A stretch of DNA of 35,493 nt from Omnitrophica bacterium GWA2_41_15 (GTDB taxonomy: Bacteria > Omnitrophota > Gorgyraeia > Gygaellales > Profunditerraquicolaceae), in contig CAKKQB010000041.1 in assembly GCA_919901915.1 (NCBI GenBank), forward strand, positions 1-35,493. Reading direction: 5' to 3'. Position 1 is the stretch's first letter, and each line of letters opens with the position of its first letter. This document shows positions 485 through 7,984 of this stretch, in pieces. A program made the translations under genes and the position numbers. Under the pieces are notes generated by a model. That model did no database searches. It was not told where the DNA came from and was given only the letters and a program-made list of their open reading frames with translations.

Positions 485-513
485 GTAGGGACAGCACAAT
501 GTGCTGTCCCTAC
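485..513. repeat. 29-bp perfect palindrome (empty copy)
   Basis: The two arms GTAGGGACAGCACA and TGTGCTGTCCCTAC are perfect reverse complements around a single base. The palindrome and about 30 bp on one side (ACACCTCA ... ATAAATCCGCCCCCTTA) recur at 1774-1936, where the centre is split by another element. These two copies bracket the duplicated pilin genes. Confidence 0.9.
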
Positions 514-553
514 ACCTCACGCCCGAGATAAATCCGCCCCCTTACAAACTTTT

Positions 554-1029
554 ATCCTATTTAATTATACCCGCCGGTTCCACTCCATACATCACTACCA
601 TTTGCCAAATTCGAGGTAAGAGTAAGATTCCATGCGCCTGTGCCTGCTGCACGATTAGGAGTTTTTCCGCCAGCAACACAACGAGTAGCAGTTGCAACAA
701 GCGTGCTATCTGCGGCACTTGTAATGCTATACGAAAAATAATGTGTTGAATTGCATGCGGAAGGAATATTATCTGCAGCTGTGCCAATATTTGCTACTGT
801 ATTATTAAAAGGATTGGTAGCACTGCTCAAATTCCCATACTCTAACCTATTCGTTGTCGCAAACTTACGAAGATCACCCAAAATTGCTTTTGCTTCAGTA
901 CCGCGAGCCCTCTCTACCATGGCGCCGTATTGCGTAAAACCTAAAGTTGCCAAAACGCCTACAATAACCATAACTATAACCAACTCCAATAACGTAAAAC
1001 CTTTTTTCATTTGTTCCTCCTTTTTTTGT
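554..1029. repeat. 476-bp direct repeat, copy A (pilin gene plus RBS)
   Basis: This segment matches 1286-1761 at a constant offset of 732 bp. I saw no mismatch along the compared length. It spans the whole pilin gene, its GGAGGAAC ribosome binding site and a few bases beyond each end. The sequence diverges immediately at both borders (553 versus 1285; 1030 versus 1762). Confidence 0.93.
561..1010 (-). CDS. pilA: Major-type type IV pilin, copy A
   Basis: This 149-residue prepilin has leader MKKG, then FTLLELVIVMVIVGVLATLG with Glu at +5, an N-terminal anchoring helix, and a globular domain. Two cysteines (in PSACNS and TRCVAGG) could form a disulphide loop. The start is the ATG directly before KKGFTLLE, because AAAAGGAGGAACAA places a strong ribosome binding site there. 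A longer open frame reaching 1085 runs only through repeat DNA. The protein is identical to the one encoded at 1293-1742, so one copy is redundant or the array is unstable. It sits downstream of pilC in the pilus block and probably supplies the filament subunit; the symbol is by role. Confidence 0.92.
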   Translation of the reverse strand: MKKGFTLLELVIVMVIVGVLATLGFTQYGAMVERARGTEAKAILGDLRKFATTNRLEYGNLSSATNPFNNTVANIGTAADNIPSACNSTHYFSYSITSAADSTLVATATRCVAGGKTPNRAAGTGAWNLTLTSNLANGSDVWSGTGGYN

Positions 1030-1113
1030 ATTGCGTATATCGTATTGCGTATTGCGTTACGCACGACGCAATACGCACAACGCACAACAAATATTACGAC
1101 ACGGTCTGAATAA
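1030..1113. repeat. GCGTATT/AATACGC array and element remnant upstream of pilin copy A
   Basis: Positions 1030-1087 are a run of TTGCGTAT-like units followed by inverted AATACGCAC-like units, able to fold on itself. At 1098-1111 the sequence GACACGGTCTGAAT matches the end of the 1790-1920 inverted-repeat element (GACACAGTCTGAAT) at 13 of 14 bases and may be its remnant. The rest of the spacer to 1285 shows no recognisable gene. Confidence 0.6.
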
Positions 1114-1285
1114 CGCTAATTCTAATATTTTTTTTAATCTGCCCCCCCCTTTTCTCTCTGAAGAACCTTGTCCACCTCGTAGGTGAACACGTTTAATAAT
1201 AATCTAAAGATACTTTTGCCGCAAGGCTATAGTTCGGTTTTCGAAAGACTTATGACTTATGACTCGCAACTATTCTAAACAAAAC

Positions 1286-1761
1286 ATCCTATTTAATTAT
1301 ACCCGCCGGTTCCACTCCATACATCACTACCATTTGCCAAATTCGAGGTAAGAGTAAGATTCCATGCGCCTGTGCCTGCTGCACGATTAGGAGTTTTTCC
1401 GCCAGCAACACAACGAGTAGCAGTTGCAACAAGCGTGCTATCTGCGGCACTTGTAATGCTATACGAAAAATAATGTGTTGAATTGCATGCGGAAGGAATA
1501 TTATCTGCAGCTGTGCCAATATTTGCTACTGTATTATTAAAAGGATTGGTAGCACTGCTCAAATTCCCATACTCTAACCTATTCGTTGTCGCAAACTTAC
1601 GAAGATCACCCAAAATTGCTTTTGCTTCAGTACCGCGAGCCCTCTCTACCATGGCGCCGTATTGCGTAAAACCTAAAGTTGCCAAAACGCCTACAATAAC
1701 CATAACTATAACCAACTCCAATAACGTAAAACCTTTTTTCATTTGTTCCTCCTTTTTTTGT
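1286..1761. repeat. 476-bp direct repeat, copy B (pilin gene plus RBS)
   Basis: This is the second copy of the 554-1029 segment, separated from it by 256 bp of unrelated sequence. Both copies keep the same orientation and ribosome binding site. The duplication is either recent or kept identical by gene conversion. Confidence 0.93.
1293..1742 (-). CDS. pilA: Major-type type IV pilin, copy B
   Basis: This 149-residue prepilin is identical in protein and DNA to the copy at 561-1010, with the same MKKG leader, Phe+1/Glu+5 processing signal and C-terminal cysteine pair. Its ribosome binding site (AAAAGGAGGAACAA) is intact. It is the first pilin after pilC. The 250-bp leader between pilC and this gene is filled by the split palindromic element at 1774-1936. 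No clear promoter was seen in that leader, so expression may depend on read-through from pilC or on a promoter I cannot recognise. Confidence 0.92.
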   Translation of the reverse strand: MKKGFTLLELVIVMVIVGVLATLGFTQYGAMVERARGTEAKAILGDLRKFATTNRLEYGNLSSATNPFNNTVANIGTAADNIPSACNSTHYFSYSITSAADSTLVATATRCVAGGKTPNRAAGTGAWNLTLTSNLANGSDVWSGTGGYN

Positions 1762-1773
1762 TAAACTGGTGCG

Positions 1774-1936
1774 GTAGGGACAGCACAATCAGACTGTGTC
1801 ACAATTCGGTTTTAGTATCATTCCCGCAAAAGCGGGAATCCATTCTCCGGCGATAACACAACTCACTGGATTCCGACTTTCGTCGGAATGACGAATTTTT
1901 AACGATTATGACACAGTCTGAATGTGCTGTCCCTAC
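1774..1936. repeat. 29-bp palindrome split by an inverted-repeat element
   Basis: The outer arms (GTAGGGACAGCACAA from 1774; TGTGCTGTCCCTAC ending at 1936) are the palindrome of 485-513. Its centre is interrupted by the 131-bp element at 1790-1920. The flank beyond 1936 (ACACCTCA ... ATAAATCCGCCCCCTTA) also matches the flank of the empty copy, so the two sites are homologous. Confidence 0.88.
1790..1920. mobile_element. 131-bp MITE-like element with apparent AAT duplication
   Basis: The ends are exact 12-bp inverted repeats (CAGACTGTGTCA / TGACACAGTCTG). The similarity continues inward through a TCATTCC hairpin with arms like ATTCCCGC and GCGGGAAT. AAT is present once at the centre of the empty palindrome (485-513) and on both sides of this element (1787-1789 and 1921-1923), as expected for a 3-bp target duplication. 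The element has no coding capacity and would need a transposase from elsewhere; none is in this window. Confidence 0.75.
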
Positions 1937-1998
1937 ACCTCATACCAAAAATAAATCCGCCCCCTTAATTAATTAATACTAAAAGCCCTGAGCGAAAA

Positions 1999-3225
1999 CT
2001 ACCTGATCTGTGAGAGTTGGAATATAGGTAAAAACATTCCAACTACCATTACCCCAATGACTAATCCCATAAAAATAAGCATTATTGGTTCAAACATAGC
2101 AGTAAAACGACCTAAAAATGTCTCGATATAATCCTGATAAAATACATTTAACCGCTTAAACATATTGGAGAGCTCGCCTATCTCCTCGCCAATGCTTATC
2201 ATCTGCACAACCATGGGATCAAAATAACCACTTTCCCGCAGAGACTGGCTTAATGGTTTCCCCTCGCGCACATCCTCCTTTACCTTCTTAATAATTTCCC
2301 CTAAAGTCCGGTTATTTACACTACGCTCCACTATTTCCAATGAATAAAGGATAGGAACACCGCTTTCAGTAAGGGTAGTCATTTCTGAAGTAAACCGTTC
2401 GACACTTATCGTGCGAAAAAATTCACCAAAAACAGGTAAACTCAATAAAAACTTTTCATATTGCATCCTGCCTGCCTTAGTCTTGATAAACCCCTGAAAA
2501 AGAAAAAAACCAACTACTGACCCCGCGATTATAAAAAGTATATACTTAGTTACAACGCCGCTTATATTTACAATAACCTGGGTCAGGATAGGCAGTTTCA
2601 AATTAAACTGACCGAATAATTGCGCGAAAGTAGGAATAATTTTCACAGTTAAAACAACAATCGCGGCTGTCCCAACAAACATAAGTATTGCTGGATAGGC
2701 TAATGCTGAAACAATCTTTCTTTTAAACGCGGCGTTTCTTTCTAAATAACTTGCCAGTCGATCTAAAACCAAGGCTAAATTACCTGAAGCCTCTCCGCTT
2801 TCTACCAGATTAACCCAGAGCTCTGAAAATACTACCGGATGCTTTGCCATCGCCTCATGAAAACTTAGGCCCTCCTCCATTTTTTTCTGCAGATCTCCAA
2901 GAATATGATAAAACATACGGCTTGCCACCTGCTCCTTTATTACCTGCAGGCTTTTTATTATAGTAATACCCGCTCCCAAAAGCGTGGCAAACTGCCGGCA
3001 AAAAAGCACCCTGTCTTCACTAGTAATCCTATTTCGCTTGAATGCGCGTCTTGCCTGCCCAGCTGTAAGCGACAAAATATCTTTTTTTTCTAAAATAGTG
3101 GTATTTATTACTATTAGCCCTTTGGCTTGCAGGCGGCCGACAATCTCATCCTGATTGCCCCCTTCTTCAACACCGCTAAGTTTTTCACCCGAACTATTCC
3201 TGGCTACATAAGAAAATTTTGGCAT
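1999..3225 (-). CDS. pilC: Type IV pilus inner-membrane platform protein PilC
   Basis: This 408-residue polytopic protein has the two T2SSF domains of the PilC/GspF family (about residues 72-195 and 275-397). The membrane segments are around 176-198, 223-246 and 378-402. The second domain carries the typical stretch ERFTSEMTTLTESGVPILYS, and the end, LPIFQLSQIR, is also family-typical. It forms the inner-membrane platform on which the PilB ATPase acts during pilin polymerisation. The length is normal. The start has a good ribosome binding site (GAGGGTAA). It lies downstream of pilB, separated by about 150 bp that contain a palindromic element. Confidence 0.95.
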   Translation of the reverse strand: MPKFSYVARNSSGEKLSGVEEGGNQDEIVGRLQAKGLIVINTTILEKKDILSLTAGQARRAFKRNRITSEDRVLFCRQFATLLGAGITIIKSLQVIKEQVASRMFYHILGDLQKKMEEGLSFHEAMAKHPVVFSELWVNLVESGEASGNLALVLDRLASYLERNAAFKRKIVSALAYPAILMFVGTAAIVVLTVKIIPTFAQLFGQFNLKLPILTQVIVNISGVVTKYILFIIAGSVVGFFLFQGFIKTKAGRMQYEKFLLSLPVFGEFFRTISVERFTSEMTTLTESGVPILYSLEIVERSVNNRTLGEIIKKVKEDVREGKPLSQSLRESGYFDPMVVQMISIGEEIGELSNMFKRLNVFYQDYIETFLGRFTAMFEPIMLIFMGLVIGVMVVGMFLPIFQLSQIR

Positions 3226-3281: not shown

Positions 3282-3349
3282 TTGTAGGGGACCACACCCA
3301 GTATCGCGCCCGTTATCTCTTGCGGGTCGGATGAATCCGACCCCTACAA
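3282..3349. repeat. Palindromic element between pilB and pilC
   Basis: Inverted ends TTGTAGGGG (3282-3290) and CCCCTACAA (3341-3349) enclose a second hairpin, GGGTCGGAT / ATCCGACCC. GTAGGGG ends recur at 7196-7225, 10034-10071 and 11673-11699. The stretch between the element and the pilB stop (TTAGTTTACCCTGAAAAA on the minus strand) closely matches the sequence just after the pilM-pilN stop near 8000. Confidence 0.75.
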
Positions 3350-3378
3350 GCCGCAAGGTGTTTTTCAGGGTAAACTAA

Positions 3379-7810: not shown

Positions 7811-7984
7811 GTGTCATTCAAATTGTGTCGTAATTCGGTTTTGGTGTCATTCCGGTGAAAACCGGAATCCAGTCACGTGAGAATCACTGGACCCCGGCTT
7901 TCGCCGGGGTGACCCTCGTCATTCCTTGCCCTCGTCATTCCGGAATGACAATTTTTCTTGATTGCGACACAATCGTAATGACAC
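7811..7984. mobile_element. Nested inverted-repeat element between pilM-pilN and pilO
   Basis: The outer ends are GTGTCATT (7811-7818) and AATGACAC (7977-7984). Just inside lie ATTGTGTCG (7822-7830) and CGACACAAT (7965-7973). The core is a GTCATTCCGG hairpin region with arms such as CCCCGGCTTTCGCCGGGG. The order TGTCATT, TGTGTCG-AAT, GTCATTCC recurs in the elements at 1790-1920 and 19465-19648. No coding capacity. Confidence 0.75.

Follow-up and report, generated by a model that had tools for sequence, protein, structure and literature searches.

Element E, a 131-bp insert that sits at the centre of a short palindrome in the window (the whole stretch of DNA analysed, 35,493 nucleotides), is one member of a dispersed family with ends CAGRCTGTGTCRYAAT. 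It is very probably a MITE: terminal inverted repeats of 16 bp bound it, and a transposase acting in trans, with a 3-bp staggered cut and a preference for the symmetric 5-mer CAWTG, would move it. The main evidence is an exact 3-bp target duplication, variable in sequence, around 51 of 71 complete copies.

Empty and filled palindromes in the window

The features of the window on which the analysis relies are the following.

485-513, unstranded: empty 29-bp palindrome GTAGGGACAGCACAATGTGCTGTCCCTAC, with a single central AAT at 498-500
514-544, plus strand: right flank of the empty site, common to the filled site (sequence comparison)
1093-1108, minus strand: CAGACCGTGTCGTAAT, a solo E end in the gap that separates the pilin copies
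1774-1789, unstranded: left half of the filled palindrome, GTAGGGACAGCACAAT, ending in the duplicated AAT (1787-1789)
1790-1920, unstranded: element E, 131 bp, non-autonomous and transposon-like (from its ends, copies and duplications)
1790-1805, plus strand: left terminal inverted repeat of E, CAGACTGTGTCACAAT
1816-1842, plus strand: first of the two CGTC-type REPs in the core, with tag TATC, 8-bp stem ATTCCCGC/GCGGGAAT, loop AAAA and tail CCA; folds as a hairpin
1867-1893, minus strand: second CGTC-type REP in the core, inverted, with tag CGTC, 8-bp stem, 4-nt loop and tail CCA; folds as a hairpin
1905-1920, minus strand: right terminal inverted repeat of E, CAGACTGTGTCATAAT
1921-1936, unstranded: right half of the filled palindrome, AATGTGCTGTCCCTAC, starting with the duplicated AAT (1921-1923)
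1937-1967, plus strand: right flank of the filled site, homologous to 514-544 (sequence comparison)
7819-7976, unstranded: a second, decayed E copy (L016), with flanks GTGTCATT / AATGACAC

The empty site reads GTAGGGACAGCACA-A-TGTGCTGTCCCTAC, a perfect palindrome of 14+1+14 bases. We found it again at 1774-1936 with E at its exact axis, and the AAT that occurs once in the empty site stands on both sides of the insert, as an earlier sequence-only reading of the window had described. The same reading took shared flanks as proof that the two sites are homologous. This holds on the right side, where 498-544 and 1921-1967 are 89% identical, but not on the left, where the flanks are unlike because the filled site has the 5' end of pilin copy 2 beside it and a different pilin gene adjoins the empty site. 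The homology of the two sites is thus drawn from the palindrome and one flank, not from both.

Both sites are intergenic and are surrounded by minus-strand genes of what we take, from the translations, to be a type IV pilus / type II secretion-like cluster. The neighbours of the filled site are one pilin copy (1293-1742) and a presumably PilC/GspF-like gene (1999-3225); the empty site has the other copy (561-1085) on one side and a third pilin gene (46-432) on the other. Two pilin genes stand here in tandem (561-1010 and 1293-1742), 732 bp apart and identical over 149 aa. A further inverted repeat, GTAGGGG...CCCCTAC, at 3284-3352 separates the pilC-like gene from the next one. Folded as RNA, 1774-1936 gives one long hairpin (-81.5 kcal/mol, z = -12.4), since a near-palindrome put in at an axis merely lengthens the hairpin. 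The event in the window would be a single insertion into the central AAT of the palindrome, in the pilC-pilin intergenic region. At the orthologous locus of the sister genome, G001, the contig ends 5 bp past pilC, and no orthologous empty site is readable there. The start of the window's own contig (1-26) falls within a GAGACGAGGCATTGCCTCGTCTCTAC palindrome, and repeats of this kind may therefore interrupt assemblies.

The ends of E are perfect inverted repeats over 12 bp, as the sequence-only reading had it (CAGACTGTGTCA / TGACACAGTCTG), and match at 15 of 16 positions over 16 bp. Allowing up to two mismatches, the 12-mer end has three matches in the window, where chance would give 0.38. The core is a head-to-head REP dimer with outward tags at 1816-1819 and 1890-1893. 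CGTC-REPs are defined by a CGTC-like tag, an 8-9-bp stem starting with AT, a 4-5-nt loop and a CCA tail (PMC3733652). The core of E has this format, with a tag (TATC on the left), an 8-bp stem beginning with AT, a 4-nt loop and the CCA tail. Its second REP has a blastn match in Neisseria DNA (89% over 45 bp), and in a plasmid collection the match was limited to the REP core, in Neisseria. We found no match for E in phages or in Rfam, and the IMG/VR matches to the 16-mer are chance hits, being lone ends with no mate nearby.

Copies of E and their 3-bp duplications

We analysed 71 complete copies with distinct 20+20-base flanks, 16 of them from the genome of the window (G000, 1.47 Mb) and the rest from other Omnitrophota, with G051, G059 and G095 as relatives besides the sister genome. 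Loci with identical flanks were merged, so that one G000 copy (L014) is additional to the 71, and copy counts cover the retrieved loci. The copies are 44-266 bp long, end in 16-bp terminal inverted repeats, have no coding capacity, and are multi-copy and dispersed over contigs. Exact CAGACTGTGTCR ends occur 17 times in G000 and 58 times in G001 (0 for a reversed control pattern). They are also found in five genomes of another family of the same order and are absent from the remaining searched members of G000's family. A 15-mer with flank was present in 15 of 285 genomes of the phylum. Hence the distribution is patchy, as expected of mobile DNA.

An exact 3-bp duplication flanks 51 of the 71 copies. 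When the right flanks were shuffled, the mean was 21.5 and the count never exceeded 37 in 20,000 trials. With strict ends, 37 of 48 copies are duplicated, against 13.6 in shuffles. Shifting the boundaries lowers the 51 duplications to 0-7, and other lengths give almost none. In G000 alone the excess is weaker (11/16, a value reached by 6 of 20,000 shuffles). Among the 51 duplicated triplets are AAT (24), ATT (18), AAG, CTT and GAA (2 each), TAT, ATC and AAA. Such variation would be impossible for a fixed part of E, so the triplet is a genuine target-site duplication. The remaining 20 copies, some of them decayed, lack an exact duplication; five of these have inverted flanks of the form CATT-E-AATG, which may be recombination products from two insertions in one REP dimer. 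A search for other CAGACTGTGTCR-ended elements with 3-bp duplications had been proposed as a check on the sequence-only reading, and its outcome, many copies at many targets with duplications of varied sequence, bears out the claim that these intergenic elements move. The varied targets and triplets rule out slippage at one fixed position.

The CAGACTG ends stay constant between genomes while the core changes: it is a CGTC dimer in G000 and G001, and a GTAG-type palindrome in G095 and G059. Core-less versions of 44-47 bp exist (L089, L093, L157), as do copies of E nested within E (L095, L098). Two loci carry one-sided copies, with one end and a duplicated GTGTCATT (L059, from 627; L063, from 654). 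They could have come from recombination of the REP core of E with a surrounding REP, and solo E ends in general may have arisen in this way.

Target choice

The symmetric 5-mer CAWTG is the site of 31 of the 51 duplicated insertions. Two kinds of repeat supply many such targets: perfect GTAG...CTAC palindromes, with CAWTG at the centre, and CGTC-REPs. Five G000 copies lie on the axis of GTAG...CTAC palindromes (L002, L003, L010, the E of the window, which is L007, and L044, the last with TAATG). At these five sites 12-13 bases pair about the axis, whereas control positions reach at least 10 in 1 of 306 cases. Another 17 such palindromes are still empty in G000, against 0 for a reversed-pattern control. 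Four of the eight CAWTG insertions in G000 are in these palindromes (P ~5e-7 against all CAWTG sites and 0.004 against intergenic CAWTG, with the background extrapolated from the window). The change in P with the intergenic background indicates that the enrichment is real and that intergenic location explains part of it. Like GTAG-tagged REPs, the target palindromes start with GTAG, are short and recur in intergenic DNA. They differ from them in being perfect: in every 0-mismatch copy the GTAG is paired to CTAC, so there is no unpaired, one-sided tag.

One locus of G051 (L072) is the window palindrome filled by another E, as GTAGGGACAGCACACT-[160-bp E]-AATGTGCTGTCCCTAC. This 160-bp E has no match to the E of the window and is 99% identical to copies at other targets in G051 (L068 and L071); its left triplet is ACT and no longer matches the right one. 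Two different E types have therefore entered this palindrome at one and the same base. Together with the five axis copies of G000, this independent filling upholds the earlier proposal that a palindrome can serve as target for another one.

The largest class of insertions is found off-axis, in the CAWTG at the foot of CGTC-REPs (GTC-ATT-GCGAG), and outside G000 most insertion sites are not on palindromes. The palindrome axis as sole target is ruled out by this largest class. E inserts in both orientations: two 93%-identical copies in G000 (L005, L014) interrupt a pair of paralogous repeats at an identical base, in opposite orientations. G000, G001 and G051 also share another MITE (L005, L014, L063, L084), which has GTAACAGTTCAGCTT..GGAAGT as its ends and a CGTC-REP as its core, and E sits inside it.

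Mechanism, rival explanations and known systems

The terminal repeats and the constant 3-bp length of the duplication suggest cleavage of the DDE type, staggered by 3 bp and made in trans. The mover would be a DDE-type transposase that cuts the target and leaves the insertion as C-AWT-E-AWT-G, and target preference may reflect CAWTG together with how common intergenic palindromes are, and perhaps also their hairpin shape. The sequence-only reading had suggested looking for a transposase whose own ends match; none is bounded by E ends among the loci and families examined (PF01609, Y1, rve, PF13359). Profile searches of G000 revealed no PF01609, PF00665 (rve) or PF13359 transposase gene, and G001 has no PF00665 match either. 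Four PF01609 loci in relatives lack E ends. Among end pairs 300-4000 bp apart with a matching duplication, as an autonomous partner would have, we found one, and it spans two MITEs. E is 131 bp long and has no gene, and so lacks the rve-type transposase of REP-targeting IS3-family elements. The IS5 family (ISL2-like, ANT duplication) is likewise not indicated, given the absence of PF01609 and PF13359 genes from G000 and of E ends from the four loci. IS1655/IS30-family elements duplicate 3 bp and prefer palindromic targets and their own ends; E resembles them in these respects, but neither G000 nor G001 has an rve-domain gene. Other mobile elements were seen at some of these loci. One in G001 (L153) carries a PF01609 gene fragment, which we read from its protein as IS5-like, with its own end GGGACTGTTTCAAAA, interrupted by another MITE family. 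That family (L017; L153, 330-460) has ends GGGACTGTTGCAAAAT, a REP-like core and a 5-bp duplication (AACAT; TTGTT).

A Y1/HUH enzyme (RAYT, IS200-like) instead of a DDE transposase would fit the REP-like core and targets of E, and G000 has three Y1_Tnp genes while lacking the three DDE/rve families tested. HUH enzymes of the IS200/IS605 group are not known to duplicate the target or to depend on terminal inverted repeats. E has both, and the Y1 gene examined in G000 is flanked by TTAGGGACAGACACTATTT-type ends, not E ends, which makes such a mover most improbable. The sequence AAATAGTGTCTGTCCCTA at 31-48 of the window matches the TTAGGGACAGACACTATTT inverted repeats around a RAYT-like Y1 transposase gene of G000 (L189). 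It is also very unlikely that the ends of E are a passive outer palindrome that gained REP dimers, with the dimers alone moving into palindrome centres. CGTC dimers do occur here within three or more distinct outer palindromes (E; GGGACTGTTGCAAAAT; GTAACAGTTCAGC..), and Di Nocera 2013 reported them within 41-bp palindromes (PMC3733652). However, it is outside the CAGACTG ends that the 3-bp duplications are found, and these ends remain constant while the core changes between genomes.

The empty site might instead be derived, E having been deleted precisely by slippage between the AAT repeats with the help of the hairpin. Near-palindromic inserts flanked by short direct repeats can be lost precisely, and the core-less copies suggest that internal deletions happen. 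Against this, the 17 intact palindromes, with their varied flanks, outnumber the filled ones, and the same palindrome holds unrelated E types in different genomes, which argues that E is the newcomer; we regard a derived empty site as highly improbable. Structural targeting, in which the transposase reads the tip of a hairpin or cruciform and CAWTG is merely the loop of common palindromes, seems unlikely, although several insertions outside CAWTG would suit it: GAA within the loop of ATTCCCGC-GAA-AGCGGGAAT (L103) and TAT between TTGCC and GGCAA (L006). AAG and CTT near a REP loop in G001 (L084, L085, L094) would suit it as well, and ISPsy8, which inserts at the symmetry axis of REP palindromes and duplicates 3 bp, is a precedent (PMC1525189). 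It fits poorly with the CAWTG at the foot of CGTC-REPs and with the majority of sites outside G000. We hence favour a MITE moved in trans with a preference for CAWTG.

Insertion into REPs is also known for IS1397, ISKpn1 and others (PMC1525189). E resembles ISPsy8 in inserting on palindrome axes with a 3-bp duplication. ISPsy8, IS1397 and ISKpn1 are complete insertion sequences with their own transposase and one REP type each, whereas E carries no gene, its ends are CA...TG, and its targets are several unrelated palindromes and REPs. With bacterial MITEs (NEMIS/Correia, RUP, Nezha and others) it shares short size, terminal inverted repeats, noncoding sequence, target duplication, intergenic location and multiple copies; it differs from them in having a REP dimer as core, REPs or REP-like palindromes as targets, and no parent insertion sequence found. 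Its core is like the CGTC-REPs of Di Nocera 2013 (including Neisseria dRS3) in format and in forming a head-to-head dimer within a palindrome, except that in E the dimer is enclosed by transposon-like ends with a 3-bp duplication. CGTC repeats were named for five phyla, Omnitrophota not among them (PMC3733652). Insertion on REP axes with a 3-bp duplication (ISPsy8) and REP dimers inside palindromes are thus already known. What is new is a MITE family in Omnitrophota that both carries and targets REPs, a combination we did not find described in the open-licence literature, where the matches listed for the E end sequences included no mobile-DNA paper.

How REPs spread, especially CGTC-REPs, which lack a known transposase, has been stated as an open question (PMC3733652). 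The E family, in which empty as well as filled sites can be read, offers one concrete route, with REPs hitch-hiking in MITEs. Short palindromic repeats could tentatively be seen as both cargo and landing site, E carrying REP dimers and its transposase reading palindrome axes, a possibility to which we give limited credence. If so, insertions would nest palindromes in palindromes, including E within E, with the hairpin kept each time. Axis insertion in intergenic palindromes leaves genes unharmed and the hairpin intact, and this would account for the persistence of such nests in a compact genome.
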